This document shows, in pieces, positions 5,426-61,769 of a stretch of 64,000 bases of DNA. Each line of letters begins with the position of its first letter. The stretch's first letter is position 1. The notes beneath the pieces are model-generated. The model was not told the DNA's origin. It searched no databases and saw only the letters and a program-made list of their open reading frames with translations. A program made the position numbers and the translations under genes. This DNA comes from a virus: positions 1 to 64,000 of the IMG/VR virus record IMGVR_UViG_3300032240_000688, one strand, 5' to 3'.

Positions 5426-6249
5426 AAATTAATTTAGTCAGCGACATGCATCTTAACTTTGCAGACATTGAAATGCCCGGTGGTGATGTGTTGATTATGG
5501 CTGGCGACATTATTGAAGCTGGTGGTCTGCGCCGTGCTGACAATGCAAAGAAAGATACTTTCTTGGCTGATCGCTATCGCCGTTTCTTCAAGGAAGAAAT
5601 GCCCAAGTACCGCAAGGTGATTTACATTATGGGTAATCACGAGCATTATAACAACAGCTACGACGACACCGCAGATCGTATTCGCAGAGAACTGCCAGAC
5701 AATGTTCACTTCCTTGAACAAGAGGGTGTGCAGATCGATGATGTGTGGTTCTTTGGTGGTACCTTCTGGACTGACATGAACAAGGGTAATCCAACCAGCA
5801 TGCAGATCATTAAAGAAAGCATGAACGACTTTAAGATCATCAAGTTTGGGCATGGTGTTAAGATTGAAAATTACGGCAACAGCTATTGGACTAATCACTT
5901 CACCCCTGCCTATGCGGCCAGTGTTTTTAAGGATACTGTAGACAAGCTCAAGGTATTCTTAGACGAACACAAAGACGACAAGGTAGTTGTGGTCAGTCAT
6001 CATGCGCCCAGTGCTATGAGTATTGATCCTATGTTCAAAGATGACCATCACATGAACGGTGCATACTACAGTGACCTAAGCGAATTGATTTTAGATAACC
6101 CTCAAATCAAAACTTGGGTGCATGGACACATGCACAATCAAAGTGACTACATGATTGGCGAGACTCGTGTGCTAACTAACCCTCGTGGTTACCTAGGATA
6201 CGAAACTATTGCCAACACATTTGACCCTGGATTCAGTTTTGAAGTATGA
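5422..6249 (+). CDS. Calcineurin-like metallophosphoesterase
   Basis: A 275-residue enzyme with the full metallophosphoesterase motif set: SDMHLN (Asp8, His10), MAGDII, GNHEH, SHHAP and GHMH. These ligate two metal ions and hydrolyse phosphomonoesters or diesters. The substrate cannot be told from sequence; DNA, RNA or small nucleotides are all possible. It overlaps both neighbours by 4 bases. Confidence 0.88.
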   Translation: MKINLVSDMHLNFADIEMPGGDVLIMAGDIIEAGGLRRADNAKKDTFLADRYRRFFKEEMPKYRKVIYIMGNHEHYNNSYDDTADRIRRELPDNVHFLEQEGVQIDDVWFFGGTFWTDMNKGNPTSMQIIKESMNDFKIIKFGHGVKIENYGNSYWTNHFTPAYAASVFKDTVDKLKVFLDEHKDDKVVVVSHHAPSAMSIDPMFKDDHHMNGAYYSDLSELILDNPQIKTWVHGHMHNQSDYMIGETRVLTNPRGYLGYETIANTFDPGFSFEV

Positions 6250-14964: not shown

Positions 14965-16182
14965 ATGAAAAAAAATCTAATAGCTCTTTCAATACTTTTA
15001 GCATTAAGTGGTTGTGCTGTAATACAAAGTTCAGGATTGAGTGAGACTGAACCAGAAGTAACAACACAGATGAAGAATGTCAAAAAAGAATTTGATTCTA
15101 TTCCAGGCCCTGCTGTTGGTAAACAAGTTAGTGTTGCAGTTTATAGTTTTGCAGACAAGACAGGACAACGCCGCCCACAGGCCAACGTAGCAAGTTTATC
15201 AACTGCCGTTACACAAGGCGCCGAAACATTCCTAATACAGGCTCTACAAAATGTAGGTCAAGGTCGATGGTTCGAAGTTGTTGAACGTGTAGGCATTGAT
15301 AATCTAACTAAAGAACGTCTAATCATCCGTCAGATGCGTGAAGCTTATGAAGGTTCAAATGCCAAACCTCTTATGCCAATGCAGTTTGCAGGCATGATCA
15401 TCGAAGGTGGTATCGTAGGTTACGATTCTAGTACAACCAGCGGTGGCGCTGGTATGCGCATCTTTGGTATTGGAAAACAAACACAATGGTCAACTGATAC
15501 TGTTACTGTAAGTTTGCGAGCAATCAGTGTAAACACAGGCAAAGTTTTAATGACAGTGGTTGTACAAAAAACTATCCTAAGTACAGCAGACTCTGCTACT
15601 GCATTGAAATTCTTTGACCAAGCAACTCAAGCGTTTGAAGCTGAAGCAGGATTGACAATTAACGAGCCAGGCACCTATGCAGTTAAAGCCGCAACAGAAA
15701 TGGCAGTTGTTGAATTAATAAAAGAAGGACAGCGTAAAGGTGTTTGGGATTACAAACAAGAAGCACCTAAACCTGCGCCAGTAGTTGTTCCAGAAATAAA
15801 GAAAGAAGAAGTCAAAGTAGAGGAGAAGAAAGATGTCGTGGTTCAACCGGAAGCCCAGCCCGAAACCAAAACAGAAACCTTACCCCCTGCCCCCGCAGAA
15901 GTAAAGGTTGAAGAAAAGAAAGTAGAAATACAAAAAGACAACGATAAACCAAATGAAAGCAAAATGGCACAAGTTACTGCAAGGCCGTTATTTGGTGAGA
16001 GGAAGCTACGAGAAGGATCGTACTTGTACGCTACTGAAAATGAAGCAGGTACGAAGAAATGGTGGTTTCCCAAAGGTAGCATAGTAAGTGTAAGACAACC
16101 TGGAAGTGAGGGTTGGTGGAGAGTAATGATAACAGACGGTACTGAGCGAGGTGGTTGGATTCGTTCTAGTCAGTTAGAATAA
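14965..16182 (+). CDS. csgG: CsgG-like curli secretion channel with C-terminal SH3-like extension
   Basis: A 405-residue lipoprotein: lipobox LSGC with Cys17, then the CsgG core (VAVYSFADKTGQRRP, ERVGIDNLTKERLIIRQ, MIIEGGIVGYDSST) to about residue 275. It then differs from classical CsgG: a Pro/Glu/Lys-rich linker (about 275-340) leads to an SH3-like module (YLYATENEAGTKKWW...GGWIRSSQLE). The core should form the nonameric outer-membrane pore for curlin. The extension may bind peptidoglycan or another wall part. Confidence 0.87.
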   Translation: MKKNLIALSILLALSGCAVIQSSGLSETEPEVTTQMKNVKKEFDSIPGPAVGKQVSVAVYSFADKTGQRRPQANVASLSTAVTQGAETFLIQALQNVGQGRWFEVVERVGIDNLTKERLIIRQMREAYEGSNAKPLMPMQFAGMIIEGGIVGYDSSTTSGGAGMRIFGIGKQTQWSTDTVTVSLRAISVNTGKVLMTVVVQKTILSTADSATALKFFDQATQAFEAEAGLTINEPGTYAVKAATEMAVVELIKEGQRKGVWDYKQEAPKPAPVVVPEIKKEEVKVEEKKDVVVQPEAQPETKTETLPPAPAEVKVEEKKVEIQKDNDKPNESKMAQVTARPLFGERKLREGSYLYATENEAGTKKWWFPKGSIVSVRQPGSEGWWRVMITDGTERGGWIRSSQLE

Positions 16183-16184
16183 GG

Positions 16185-16221
16185 TGTTGGTTTTCCAACA
16201 TGTTGTTTTTTTAACATGTTG
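16185..16221 (+). terminator. Overlapping alternative hairpins between csgG and curlin
   Basis: Hairpin A: TGTTGG-TTTT-CCAACA (16185-16200). Hairpin B: CAACATGTT (16196-16204) pairs perfectly with AACATGTTG (16213-16221). They share CAACA, so they exclude each other. A T7 run (16206-16212) follows A by a few bases and forms the loop of B. This looks like a terminator/antiterminator switch. Confidence 0.5.
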
Positions 16222-16238
16222 TAAAAATAACAGCATAG

Positions 16239-16244
16239 TATAAT
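16239..16244 (+). promoter_or_regulatory. TATAAT -10 box of the curlin unit
   Basis: TATAAT without a good -35. It would give a leader of about 120 bases holding GGTCATTGACC and a perfect 8-bp hairpin GTTTGTAA-ACAA-TTACAAAC (16326-16345) before the curlin ATG. Confidence 0.4.
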
Positions 16245-16373
16245 AGAGAGGTAAGAGTGTTTAAATAAAATAGCAGTACACTATATGGTCATTGACCAAG
16301 GAGCTAAATTGGGGTAGAACTAAGCGTTTGTAAACAATTACAAACAAGGTGTTGCAACTCAATTTATTAAAGT

Positions 16374-17225
16374 ATGAAAACAAGTATAAAAGGCGGTGGT
16401 AAGTTGTCGAGAAAATTACTTACAATTCTAATGACAGTTGGAATGCTGTCATCGGGTTCACTGTTAGCGGCTGATAACAGTATCTATATTGATCAATCTG
16501 GCGATTTCGCTAATGTCACGATTAACCAAGATGGTGCAGGTAACCAAGTACGGGGTTTGCAGGCTAACGGTGGTGATGACAAGACCATAGCTTCTGTAAT
16601 TAGGGGTAACGGTGTTAACGTAAACATTAATCAAGTCGGTGGTTCAAACAAACTAGATTTGGGCATCAATGCTATCATGGCTGGAAATAAGAGTGTTGAT
16701 TTTACGTATTCTACTGTGAACGCAGGAAATTTGACAGGTAATAACAACACTGGTATATTCCAACTTGGTAATGGTAGTGCAACATTAGCCAACTCAATCG
16801 TTAGCGTAGTTCAGGTTAACGGAAACAACTATGCCGAAGTTAGAATGCAAGGGTCCGACAATACATTAAATGCACTACAAAGTGGTGGTAACGCCAGTTT
16901 AATTTCTTCGGTTAATGCCAGTGGAACTAATCAACAGATTACAACTGCCGGTGGTACTGGTAACTCAGTTAGTACAACATTAACTGGGCAAAACGGCCAG
17001 GTGTATGTCAATGTAATGGGCGCATCTAATACCGTTGCTATTGCACAAGATGGTACAGGTGGTCTGACTGGTCATCAAGCAACTATGGATATTAATGGTA
17101 CAGGCAACTCAGTAAATCTAGCACAGGCAGGATCGCCAGCGGCTAACGTTTTTAACTTGCGAGTTGGTAGCGCAGGATCTGCGGCAAGTACTAATACCTA
17201 TAACATAACACAGACAACACGATAA
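16374..17225 (+). CDS. Curlin-repeat amyloid subunit 1
   Basis: A 283-residue exported protein (signal peptide ending LLAADN). The mature part is Asn/Gly/Ser/Gln-rich with repeated N-x-(V/I)-x-(I/V)-x-Q-x-G units such as SIYIDQSGDFANVTINQDGA and NVNINQVGGSNK, the CsgA/CsgB pattern. It should pass through CsgG and polymerise as a surface amyloid. The repeats are less regular than in E. coli CsgA and the protein is about twice as long. It may coat the infected cell or act with the virion. Confidence 0.8.
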   Translation: MKTSIKGGGKLSRKLLTILMTVGMLSSGSLLAADNSIYIDQSGDFANVTINQDGAGNQVRGLQANGGDDKTIASVIRGNGVNVNINQVGGSNKLDLGINAIMAGNKSVDFTYSTVNAGNLTGNNNTGIFQLGNGSATLANSIVSVVQVNGNNYAEVRMQGSDNTLNALQSGGNASLISSVNASGTNQQITTAGGTGNSVSTTLTGQNGQVYVNVMGASNTVAIAQDGTGGLTGHQATMDINGTGNSVNLAQAGSPAANVFNLRVGSAGSAASTNTYNITQTTR

Positions 17226-17226
17226 T

Positions 17227-18330
17227 ATGAATTTTCGCACAGCAATATTGTTATGGTTGCTGAGTATTACGTACAGTTACGGTGCCGTCGGCACTGTGAC
17301 TGAACAAGTCAACACACCAGCCAGCATACAAAGAGACAAACAAACACTCACGGGCAACAAAGGCACGGGGGTGGAGATGAACGATTCAATCAGAACACAA
17401 GCAGGTAAGGTAGGAATAACATTCCAAGATGACACACGAGTACAGGTTAACGAAAACAGTAAACTTGTAATTGACGATTTTGTATATGACCCAAAAAGTA
17501 AAAGCGGTAAACTAAGCGCCAAGATGGCACTTGGTACCGTTCGTTATGCCAGCGGACAGATTGCAAAAAATTCACCACAAAATGTAGCACTGAATACACC
17601 AACAGCAACTATTAGTGTGCGTGGTACAGACTTTACAGCGTCAGTGGACGAGCTAGGACAATCAACAGTTATATTATTGCCTAGCTGTCCTACTGATCGA
17701 CGCACAAGATCAATTAAAGACATTGAATCAACTTGCCACACAGGTGAGATCAGTGTAGAAACAGATGCAGGTATTGTTATACTTAATCAACCTTTTCAAG
17801 CTACAAAAGTAAACAGCAGAAGTGCGCCCCCAAGTAAGCCAGTTGTGCTCAATCTTAGCGAGAATGCAATTGAAAGTTTGTTATTGTCTACTCCAGAAGA
17901 AATGAAAGGAAACAAACAAGATCAGCGACAGACTATGCGTGGTGCTTTAGACGTTGACTTTTTAAAAGAGCAAGGGCTCACTAATGCACTTGATGATAGT
18001 TCTAAACAGTTCTTCCAGGACAAGCTCAGTCGTAATTTTTTAGACAGCAATTTCCTTGGCAATATGTTTGATATGGTAGGCAACGGACTTGATGCTAAAT
18101 TCTTAGAAGAAGTTGACAGCATGTTACCTGACTATAAAAAGTCTAGTGGCATCATCGTAACCAAAGACGATCCGACTATTACTCTATGTCGTGATAACGG
18201 CAGTGACATACAATGTGCAACAACACCCATGACACAGAACTCGACCCTGTATATGACGCAGAATAATATTGAGTTTAAAAATCGTGTCAACCAGGGCGGC
18301 AACACTATTATTACACTAACACAAAAATAA
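17227..18330 (+). CDS. Exported FecR-domain protein
   Basis: A 367-residue protein with a signal peptide (ending YSYG). A FecR beta-domain covers about residues 25-140: MNDSIRTQAGKVGITFQDDTRV, LGTVRYASGQ and TPTATISVRGTDF. The C-terminal half is unassigned and contains cysteines that may form disulfides (LPSCP, ESTCHTG, TLCRDN, IQCATT). It begins 1 base after curlin 1 and ends 1 base into curlin 2, so it belongs to this operon; a scaffold or assembly role is likely. Confidence 0.8.
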   Translation: MNFRTAILLWLLSITYSYGAVGTVTEQVNTPASIQRDKQTLTGNKGTGVEMNDSIRTQAGKVGITFQDDTRVQVNENSKLVIDDFVYDPKSKSGKLSAKMALGTVRYASGQIAKNSPQNVALNTPTATISVRGTDFTASVDELGQSTVILLPSCPTDRRTRSIKDIESTCHTGEISVETDAGIVILNQPFQATKVNSRSAPPSKPVVLNLSENAIESLLLSTPEEMKGNKQDQRQTMRGALDVDFLKEQGLTNALDDSSKQFFQDKLSRNFLDSNFLGNMFDMVGNGLDAKFLEEVDSMLPDYKKSSGIIVTKDDPTITLCRDNGSDIQCATTPMTQNSTLYMTQNNIEFKNRVNQGGNTIITLTQK

Positions 18331-19700
18331 TGAAAGCAATAATTCTATTCTTTACAATATTAGTTGCAGGATTTGGCTCATGTAGTAATGCTCGTGCTGT
18401 GGGTTTGGCTGATTTAAAATTCGGACAATATCAGATAGCCGACAGTCAATGGAATGTTCAGGCATGTACACAAACACCAACCTGTCAAATATACAGTAAG
18501 AATCCAGGAACAGCTTATAAGATACCTTGGTGGAGTGGACAATTAAATTGGGCCGCAGGAGACTATGTTGCGTTTGTACTAACTGGTGATGCCACTAACC
18601 CATGGAACGCAATTCAATATACTTCTAACGGAACACAGAAAGCAGTAATGGGCACTGGACATATTATTAACATGGGCTCGGACTATTTCTTCTTTGTGGG
18701 TAATGATAATGATACCGGACAACTGTTCAGTATGACCAGCGGATTCAGCGATAACAATGGGGTATCGTGGACTGGAACATTAAATCCAACTACAACAGAA
18801 GTTAATACCTACGCCTCTGGCGGAAGTACAGCACCATTGAGTCCTGGACAAACATATAGTGGCTCGTCTGCTAATACTTCTAGTCCTAGTCAGCCCTCTG
18901 CACCATCATATCCTGCGTATGTTACTATTGGAAGTGGTACTCCTGGAACTATGGAATTTGGGTCTAGCGCCGGTCCAAGATTACCGCAACAAACCAACAT
19001 TGATGTTTGGACCAATCGTACAGTCACAGATGGCAATCAAATCTATATCCAACAGGTCAGCGGAAATAACAACACCGTTACTATGAATCAAGAAGGTAAT
19101 AAGAATTTAATCAGATCTAGAATAGAAGGTAATACTAATTCTATCACAGTCAATCAAGGTGTGCAAGGAATTGGACAGAACGAGATTAAAACTAACACAG
19201 TTGGAGACAATAATACGCTTAATTTAAATCAAGCACGAACAACACAGGGAATGGCCATAGGCACTAACGGACACTATCAAGCAGTGGACATCAACGGCTC
19301 TTACAACACACTGACCACACAGCAAAGCAACAGCGGAGGCGTTGGTGGCCAATATATGGAAACAACTATTAGCGGTAATCAAAATAGTGTTACTGCTCGA
19401 CAAACTGATAATGGTAACAAAATAATGTTTACCACAATCGCAGGTAACAACAATACTGTAGAGGCTGTACAAAAAGGTACAGGACAGCATTACTTAGAAA
19501 GTAAATTAACTGGCAATGGCAATAGTGTTAGTGCAGTACAAGAAGGAAATCTTGCTAACCGTGCTACATTAGATCTAACCAATGCCGGAGGTCCGGCCAG
19601 TGTGATATTACAACAGAATGGCGGACAGAACGTAAGTGTTACTACAACATGTGCCACAGCAGGAGGCTGTGCGCCTATTACAGTAAGACAAGGATATTAA
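18330..19700 (+). CDS. Curlin-repeat amyloid subunit 2 with N-terminal domain
   Basis: A 456-residue exported protein. Residues about 25-160 form a separate domain with two cysteines (ACTQTPTCQ). A Ser/Pro linker (about 165-220) leads to curlin repeats from about 230 to 420 (QIYIQQVSGNNNTVTMNQEG, NSITVNQG, NTLNLNQA, NSVTARQT). It ends with a Cys pair in TTCATAGGCAP. The non-amyloid head suggests an adhesin or nucleator carried on the fibre. Confidence 0.8.
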   Translation: MKAIILFFTILVAGFGSCSNARAVGLADLKFGQYQIADSQWNVQACTQTPTCQIYSKNPGTAYKIPWWSGQLNWAAGDYVAFVLTGDATNPWNAIQYTSNGTQKAVMGTGHIINMGSDYFFFVGNDNDTGQLFSMTSGFSDNNGVSWTGTLNPTTTEVNTYASGGSTAPLSPGQTYSGSSANTSSPSQPSAPSYPAYVTIGSGTPGTMEFGSSAGPRLPQQTNIDVWTNRTVTDGNQIYIQQVSGNNNTVTMNQEGNKNLIRSRIEGNTNSITVNQGVQGIGQNEIKTNTVGDNNTLNLNQARTTQGMAIGTNGHYQAVDINGSYNTLTTQQSNSGGVGGQYMETTISGNQNSVTARQTDNGNKIMFTTIAGNNNTVEAVQKGTGQHYLESKLTGNGNSVSAVQEGNLANRATLDLTNAGGPASVILQQNGGQNVSVTTTCATAGGCAPITVRQGY

Positions 19701-31171: not shown

Positions 31172-31345
31172 GTGGAAACGAGGTCCACGTCCTGCACTAT
31201 AAACATGGGACAAACGGGCGGCCTAGGCGATGGAGCATCGGGAGATGTGTCGAAAAACCCTAGCGTATTAAAGCATTCTCAGGCCGCAGGGCAAGTGGGT
31301 TCATCCATGTAGAGTGCTTTAATACACACATTCGAAAGAGTGTGT
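31172..31345 (+). ncRNA. Structured leader RNA upstream of tRNA-Tyr
   Basis: No gene is seen between the terminator and the first tRNA. Hairpins include GTGGA/TCCAC (31172-31188), CGATG-GAG-CATCG (31228-31240) and a 15-bp helix (31265-31279 with 31311-31325, one G-T wobble) capping a 31-base loop. A further hairpin, ACACAC/GTGTGT (31324-31345), shares two bases with that helix. It may be a processing signal or a small stable RNA. Family unknown. Confidence 0.45.
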
Positions 31346-31349
31346 TAAT

Positions 31350-31438
31350 GGAGATGCGGCTACGATGGTGGAGTGGCCCCGGACTGTAAATCCGGTACTT
31401 AAGAAACGCAATAGGTTCGAATCCTATCATCTCCACCA
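31350..31438 (+). tRNA. tRNA-Tyr(GTA)
   Basis: Acceptor GGAGATG/CATCTCC, anticodon loop CTGTAAA, long variable arm, T-loop TTCGAAT, encoded ACCA. Confidence 0.93.
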
Positions 31439-31765: not shown

Positions 31766-31820
31766 AGGATACTAACAGCAAATCTAATTTCAACTATTAT
31801 GGAAAAAGAAAATGTATCCT
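31766..31820 (+). ncRNA. CAGCAA-box RNA element, copy 1
   Basis: A 55-base element closed by AGGATAC/GTATCCT. Just inside the 5' strand is AACAGCAA; GTTTTA follows the 3' strand. It fills the gap between tRNA-Ile and tRNA-Gln. The same layout recurs at 32964, 35397, 35537 and 35658. Confidence 0.6.
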
Positions 31821-31830
31821 GTTTTATTGT

Positions 31831-31910: not shown

Positions 31911-31985
31911 ACTCCGGTCGTCTAGTGGCTAGGACGCCAGCCTTTCAAGTTGGAGAAGCGGGATCGAAACCCGTTCGGAGTACCA
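31911..31985 (+). tRNA. tRNA-Glu(TTC) copy 1
   Basis: Acceptor ACTCCGG/TCGGAGT, anticodon loop CTTTCAA, encoded ACCA. Confidence 0.92.
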
Positions 31986-31989
31986 ATCA

Positions 31990-32069
31990 TGTTGTATTGC
32001 TGGTTCGAAGCCAGCTTGTAGTCAAGACTAAGAATCAGCTACAATAGTTTAACTGGTAAAACTACAACA
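31990..32069 (+). ncRNA. Circularly permuted tRNA-like gene
   Basis: tRNA parts occur in permuted order. First a T-arm (GCTGG-TTCGAAG-CCAGC, 31999-32015), then a 3' acceptor strand TTGTAGT (32016-32022) and a 15-base linker. Next come the 5' acceptor strand GCTACAA (32038-32044), TA, and a D-arm (GTTT-AACTGGTA-AAAC, 32047-32062). The ends TGTTGTA (31990-31996) and TACAACA (32063-32069) pair as an anticodon-type stem. No CCA is encoded and the anticodon cannot be assigned. A six-T run (32071-32076) follows one base after the end. Confidence 0.55.
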
Positions 32070-32078
32070 ATTTTTTAT

Positions 32079-32157
32079 CTCGGTGTAGCTTAGTCCGGTT
32101 TAAAGCGCCTGGTTTGGGACCAGGAGATCGTGAGTTCGAATCCCACTTCCGAGACCA
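32079..32157 (+). tRNA. tRNA-Pro(TGG)
   Basis: Anticodon arm CCTGG-TTTGGGA-CCAGG; acceptor CTCGGTG/TTCCGAG with one mismatch; encoded ACCA. Confidence 0.9.
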
Positions 32158-61181: not shown

Positions 61182-61769
61182 ATGTTAGTACCAATGGTAA
61201 TTGAAAAGTCCAGCAATGGCGAACGTGCTTATGACATTTACAGCAGACTTTTAAAAGAACGTATTGTGTTCTTAAATGGTCCTGTACATGACGATTCAGC
61301 TAACTTGATCGTGGCACAGATGCTGTTTTTAGAGTCAGAAGACCCAGATAAAGACATTAATTTTTATATCAATAGCCCGGGCGGTGTTGTTACCGCAGGT
61401 ATGAGCATTTATGATGTAATGCAGTTTGTCAAGTGTGATGTAGCAACCTATGTGATGGGGCAGGCCTGTTCAATGGGTAGTTTGTTAGCCAATTCAGGGA
61501 GTGCCGGAAAACGCTATATGTTGCCTCAAGCACGTCACATGATCCATCAGCCTAGCGGCGGCGCTGGTGGGCAGGCTACAGACATGGAAATCCAAGTAAA
61601 AGAGATCTTAAAAATGAAGAAAACTCTTACAGAAATCTATGTTGCACACAACAGCAAAGGTAAAACTTATGAAGATTTTGCACGTGATATGGAGCGAGAT
61701 TTCTTCATGAGCGCACAAGAAGCCTGCGATTATGGCCTTGTAGACACAGTTGTAAGCAAGCACGAATAA
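61182..61769 (+). CDS. clpP: ClpP, serine protease subunit of Clp
   Basis: A 195-residue protein with the complete triad: Ser97 in [11 protein letters not shown], His122 in [10 protein letters not shown] and Asp173 in MERDFFMS. The handle helix region is present. Active ClpP forms a 14-mer fed by ClpX. With clpX at 1297 and clpS at 11088 the phage carries an almost full Clp system. The N-terminal loop starts [10 protein letters not shown], close to bacterial mature ClpP. Confidence 0.95.

Follow-up and report, generated by a model that had tools for sequence, protein, structure and literature searches.

The tRNA array and the unit at 31990–32069

The window, that is, the whole stretch of DNA analysed here, comprises 64,000 bases of a viral record that is 66,198 bases long and holds, between positions 31350 and 34637, 28 tRNA genes which according to ARAGORN cover all 20 amino acids. 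Within this array a unit of 80 bases (31990–32069, plus strand) sits between a tRNA-Glu gene (31911–31985) and a tRNA-Pro gene (32079–32157). ARAGORN and Rfam detect both flanking genes, and neither reports a tRNA gene over the unit itself. Direct reading of the sequence gives, in this order, a closing strand, a T arm, the 3′ acceptor strand, a 15-nt loop, the 5′ acceptor strand, the dinucleotide TA, a D arm and a second closing strand, in agreement with the initial annotation, which had placed the T arm and the 3′ acceptor before the 5′ acceptor and the D arm. All of these parts lie on the plus strand. The 5′ strand of the closing stem (TGTTGTA, 31990–31996) pairs in the centroid fold with its 3′ strand (TACAACA, 32063–32069), behind which come an A and a T run. 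The T arm (GCTGG-TTCGAAG-CCAGC, 31999–32015), recognised by sequence reading and in covariance searches, is followed by the 3′ acceptor strand (TTGTAGT, 32016–32022), by an acceptor-tip loop of 15 nt (CAAGACTAAGAATCA, 32023–32037) with the motif form UCAAGxCUAAxAAxCAG, and by the 5′ acceptor strand (GCTACAA, 32038–32044), which pairs with the 3′ one. The segment 32045–32062 then supplies U8-A9 (TA, 32045–32046) and the D arm (GTTT-AACTGGTA-AAAC, 32047–32062). The two 7-bp pairings claimed earlier are both found: the acceptor strands pair at seven of seven positions, one of them a G.U, and the outer closing strands also at seven of seven, all Watson-Crick.

The bases required for a tRNA elbow are all there, namely U8, A14, A15 with U48, G18-G19, U54-U55-C56 and A58, and the unit RNA may form tRNA-elbow contacts. 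Its centroid fold is the permuted structure, with a minimum energy of −20 kcal/mol and a z value of −2.15. Within the acceptor loop a 2-bp GA/UC mini-stem around CUAAGAA is possible, and to see in CUAAGAA an anticodon loop would be speculation.

Elsewhere in the tRNA region, the segment 33187–33275, unreported by ARAGORN, looks by eye like a tRNA-Ser gene (anticodon UGA) with a long variable arm, and hairpins of the type AACACATTC...GAGTGTGTT recur between tRNA genes (32822–32878, 31325–31350 and 34006–34036).

Recurrence of the unit in other viral contigs

The same order of parts could be found in a non-functional relic of two tRNAs, broken or duplicated in tandem, as tandem duplication followed by loss of the outer halves yields a permuted order and the unit is located in a tRNA array. 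We consider this improbable for the following reasons. The fetched loci contain about 615 further junctions between a T arm and a D arm; seven-of-seven pairing in the acceptor register is observed in five, four of which are by inspection framed elements (permuted cores within a basal stem, described below) that had been missed by the filter, leaving a single case. The seven Watson-Crick pairs of the closing stem add a chance which we estimate at about 6e-5. Moreover, the unit is found in three further viral contigs (L002, L017 and L018); L017 and L018 are nearly one phage, so that it is known from four contigs representing three lineages, the window included. Its core, the unpaired loop among it, is 100% identical in L002 and L017/L018, whereas in the same comparison the adjoining tRNAs are only about 76–94% identical and matched coding DNA 66–74%. 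The neighbouring genes differ between contigs. A unit which recurs with an identical core and changing neighbours is thus not a debris junction; the identity reflects either conservation or recent transfer, and the latter would also be transfer of an intact unit, so that both speak against debris. In addition, every stem is intact, and the loop motif is shared with the framed elements. The initial annotation had held that a lack of conservation in relatives would indicate a chance remnant, and with the unit present in these three contigs that ground falls away.

Further searches delimit the distribution of the unit. R1, a covariance model built on the core, puts the unit at the top of the window with 40.7 bits; an ordinary tRNA–tRNA junction scores 40.1 bits, so that R1 alone is not decisive, and the model was set aside as a detector since such junctions score nearly as high. 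BLAST against isolated phages returned no homologue across most of the unit length, and the exact loop and D-arm patterns, sought in viral and genome collections, gave beyond L002, L017 and L018 only protein-coding or unrelated matches (L106, L128 and L129). A 19-nt match in a Burkholderiales MAG was discarded, being near chance level by our own estimate (about two expected). The complement of the loop, sought in the window as an antisense target, has no occurrence there apart from the loop itself.

It is similarly improbable that the unit is a cis element, meaning an RNA-processing or termination structure of the tRNA operon. Its intergenic position and the T run behind the closing stem would suit such a role; however, the closing stem is A/U-rich, neighbouring tRNAs also have T-rich spacers behind them, and a tRNA elbow with GG and TTCGA would be unnecessary for it.

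Framed relatives and the comparison with YrlA

Relatives were fetched via the Ro60-like gene of the window (35730–37133, see below) and scanned for permuted cores. Permuted cores of this kind, differing in sequence, occur in dozens of RNAs of related phages. Most of these cores lie within a common frame, or basal stem, in which a short G-initiated stem strand is followed by a motif with CAGCAA at its end (commonly ACTAACAGCAA or GTTAACAGCAA), then by a middle part that varies, and finally by the complementary strand and TG or TGT; the motif ACAGCAA is conserved in the basal stem of the framed elements. The framed core shows strong covariation, with changes on both sides of a pair for 13 of 15 pairs, in a set of sequences partly picked by pairing. 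The unit of the window has beside its core just the 7-bp closing stem and no basal stem with ACAGCAA, unlike the framed relatives. Longer elements are also seen, at 5536–5750 of L032 and around 5186 of L048, both with a fully paired permuted core and lacking the usual CTG end, the former with a GTCAGCAA motif.

The initial annotation had suggested covariance models for the locus. These gave no tRNA match over the unit, the best Rfam match being YrlA (RF02553; 20.9 bits, E 0.012, model positions 25–83), at a score far below the YrlA gathering score of 69 bits. Framed relatives with a permuted core match YrlA at 27–44 bits, likewise below 69, and some do so end to end over positions 1–114 (L115 with 39.3 bits, L132 with 43.7 and L149 with 39.5); the framed elements of L168 and L206 also match over the full model, the end-to-end scores of these five ranging from 29 to 44 bits. 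The acceptor loop TCAAGCCTAAAAAGCAG, or a near-copy of it, is present in framed elements of L093, L137, L149, L168 and L186, and the unit loop (TCAAGACTAAGAATCAG) is identical to it at 14 of 17 positions, with an inner C-G pair replaced by A-U. By this common loop the unit is connected with the framed family, although it has no frame itself. Most framed relatives have shorter acceptor loops of 4–9 nt, or UUCG or GAAA caps.

These loops bear on a reading to which we assign slight probability, according to which RNase P and tRNase Z would remove the acceptor loop, CCA would be added and the resulting nicked tRNA-like RNA would be charged as a two-piece RNA. Permuted tmRNAs do function as two-piece RNAs, and a normal acceptor plus T arm could be an RNase P substrate. 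However, the loop of the unit is conserved rather than free to vary, the short or capped loops of most framed relatives do not fit, and about 80 nt leave no space for a tag reading frame. No tmRNA match to the unit slice was obtained with Rfam at E up to 10, and ARAGORN reports no tmRNA. The permuted tmRNA (RF04321) is alike in having its 3′ half ahead of the 5′ half, but differs from the unit, which is about 80 nt long, lacks a tag frame and has a D stem.

As to decoding, the 5′ flank outside the closing stem varies between the contigs that carry the unit (ATCA, TTTA), so that these contigs share no anticodon. Behind the 3′ acceptor strand of the unit there is no CCA, whereas the neighbouring tRNAs that were checked do encode it, and in related elements the capping of the acceptor stem by UUCG or GAAA leaves no free tRNA end. 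Since nothing is conserved as an anticodon and no CCA stands behind the acceptor, the unit very probably does not decode. A genuine permuted tRNA gene, whose ends would be joined in the anticodon loop and whose acceptor loop would be excised before CCA addition to give a working tRNA, is therefore hardly credible: the order of parts and the complete acceptor and closing pairing agree with it, and a phage or host RNA ligase could perhaps circularise the unit, but beyond the missing anticodon and CCA the window tRNAs already serve all 20 amino acids, the loop to be discarded is identical in all copies and common to framed elements, and the bulge-helix-bulge endonuclease of archaea and algae is not known from bacteria or phages. 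Of the permuted tRNA proposed initially, then, the order of a circularly permuted tRNA-like fold stands, and the algal or archaeal type of gene yielding a tRNA finds no support; the likeness to the archaeal and algal genes lies in the order of the halves, and the unit departs from them by lacking an anticodon and CCA and by having a closed acceptor.

YrlA offers a closer parallel in its tRNA-like module, whose acceptor stem is also closed by a loop. With YrlA the unit has in common a permuted module of T arm, looped acceptor stem and D arm, and it differs in its long acceptor-tip loop and in the lack of the basal Ro-binding stem. The unit is most likely not a working tRNA and rather a look-alike of the Y RNA type. 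Our best reading is thus that of a real, conserved, permuted tRNA-like RNA, a variant of the YrlA-type mimics and not a decoding tRNA; stated more specifically, 31990–32069 probably encodes a small non-coding RNA which mimics the upper half of a tRNA in permuted form and is a free-standing relative of the YrlA-type module.

Such an RNA would consist of acceptor stem, T arm and D arm, with the acceptor closed by the conserved loop motif of 17 nt and with pairing of the chain ends at the place of the anticodon stem. It is probably cut from the tRNA transcript by the processing of the flanking tRNAs, at the 3′ end of tRNA-Glu and by RNase P at tRNA-Pro, and once freed it would remain a closed elbow that does not decode. 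YrlA is marked by binding of Rsr and PNPase and by modification by DusA and TruB; its basal stem tethers the Ro protein while its tRNA-like module binds PNPase and tRNA enzymes modify it (PMC8394870), and a role as competitor against a tRNA-cutting nuclease has been suggested (PMC7790460). By analogy, the framed relatives may serve as tethers between the phage Ro60-like protein and an effector, and the frameless unit, without the tethering stem, may bind a protein that recognises the tRNA elbow, for which PNPase, a tRNA-modifying enzyme or a tRNA-cutting defence nuclease are our guesses. The unit would then act as a competitor or as an adaptor.

Basal-stem RNAs and the Ro60-like gene

Besides the unit, the window has five basal-stem RNAs, all on the plus strand and none with a recognisable tRNA core. 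Three are short frame RNAs, located at 31767–31821 (GGATAC-TAACAGCAA...GTATCC-TGTT), 32965–33019 and 35398–35457; a longer one (35538–35644) carries a structured insert, and the fifth (35659–35717) forms part of the Ro60-like gene's leader and has its 3′ end (CCTGAAAGGA) at the likely ribosome-binding site. In a short slice, the element at 31767 matches the Class I RNA family of Rfam (RF01414) with E 0.011. Matches to this family are obtained in 12 of 12 phage records, reaching 34.1 bits, and in the window up to 25.4 bits, none above the gathering cut-off of 41.5; seven of 14 control genomes also match at E up to 1. Class I RNAs are characterised by a variable stem initiated by G, an 11-nt motif in which T, C, C, A and A are nearly invariant, and a CUGU end (PMC7919456). 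The element at 31767 has all of these marks, with a G-initiated stem of about 6 bp, T3, C6, C9, A10 and A11 in ACTAACAGCAA, and the CUGU end; T3 is replaced by G in 32965 and by C in 35398, and varies in other phages too. The frame elements of the window are like the Dictyostelium RNAs in terminal stem, 11-nt motif (with all five bases in 31767), CUGU end and variable middle, whereas the AA ahead of the 5′ G of Class I RNAs is not conserved in the phage elements. Class I RNAs are reported only from dictyostelids, where they are known to be bound by the RRM protein Rnp1A (PMC7919456). The elements at 31767, 32965 and 35398 appear to resemble Class I RNAs, by homology or by convergence. A wider proposal, which we regard as unlikely, is that the phage basal-stem RNAs, with or without a permuted tRNA module, and the Class I RNAs belong together as RNP RNAs of a single family, whose common protein-binding frame would be recognised by Ro60-like proteins; in this view the frameless unit is a tRNA mimic which split off with its own conserved acceptor-tip loop.

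The gene at 35730–37133 (plus strand) encodes a protein of 467 aa with matches to Pfam DUF2828 and DUF7788 and to PHROG 850 ('RNA-binding protein'); its mycobacteriophage homologues are annotated as 'Ro-like RNA binding protein'. The AF2 model of the product has a mean pLDDT of 70.8, and structure comparison over 353–383 residues ranks Ro60 proteins first: 9kop with Z 16.5, 9l5y (Thermus phage phiLo Ro60) with 14.9, D. radiodurans Rsr (2nvo) with 12.5, human Ro60 with 12.2 and Xenopus Ro60 with 12.0. Foldseek gives E 8.7e-8 for the same model. The product is thus predicted to have the Ro60 fold, TROVE plus vWA.

In 80 Ro-like loci, 293 frame elements are found on the strand of the gene and six on the other, against 3.6 expected, and [AT]CAGCAA occurs in 79 of 80 Ro-gene leaders as compared with 17 of 1200 leaders of other ORFs. 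The leader stems fit their own partner strand, with six of six Watson-Crick pairs in 38 of 48 distinct leaders, and not the strands of other leaders (0.3%). In relatives the frame element occupies the same leader position as 35659–35717 in the window, and this leader RNA suggests autoregulation of the Ro60-like gene by feedback on its own mRNA. In the opposite direction, with the RNA motif as the starting point, GTATCCTG closes 81 of 88 copies; of 16 large contigs examined that were retrieved through the RNA alone, 14 contain a Ro-like match, which is full length in 12. In the other contigs that carry the unit, all of them fragments, searches over 60 of 62 kb, over 53 kb and over 29 kb detected neither a convincing frame element nor a Ro-like gene. 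Among isolated phages, MsGreen, LMTA-57, SEP9, CP81, BUCT-ZZ01, TP1, KVP40, Milchi and S13 have the gene together with elements near it or in the tRNA region, and phiAS5 and Ci1 gave no convincing frame element. The Ro-gene leader itself lacks a clean stem-plus-motif element in S13, phiAS5, TP1, MsGreen, SEP9, Milchi and Ci1, most of these seven having such elements elsewhere in the fetched stretch.

Y RNAs have been proposed in phages before. In Listeria phage CKA15, which is P100-like, three highly transcribed putative non-coding regions lie within 2 kb upstream of an Rsr-like gene, the Rsr-like protein is found in particles and the authors proposed Y RNAs (PMC12282133). These proposals, for mycobacteriophages and, by description, for CKA15, have in common with the window a phage, a tRNA region and a nearby Ro-like gene; the window differs in having several elements per array, one element in the Ro-gene leader and a variant that lacks the frame. 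In Listeria phage LMTA-57, three tandem frame RNAs (L114, 3664–3926) are located just upstream of a DUF2828 gene, and these are possibly the counterpart of the abundant CKA15 transcripts.

A phage tRNA array can hence hold permuted tRNA mimics and several Y-RNA-like RNAs beside a Ro60-like gene, one of them in its leader, which makes the function of phage Ro60 and Y RNAs testable. The frame elements also provide a concrete sequence link to the Class I RNAs of social amoebae. RNAs of this kind are overlooked by annotation pipelines that consider tRNAs only. Outside the tRNA region, the window carries further unusual phage cargo at 1297–2535, 14965–19700 and 61182–61769, namely ClpX-like and ClpP-like proteins and, close together, CsgG, FecR and curlin-repeat matches.
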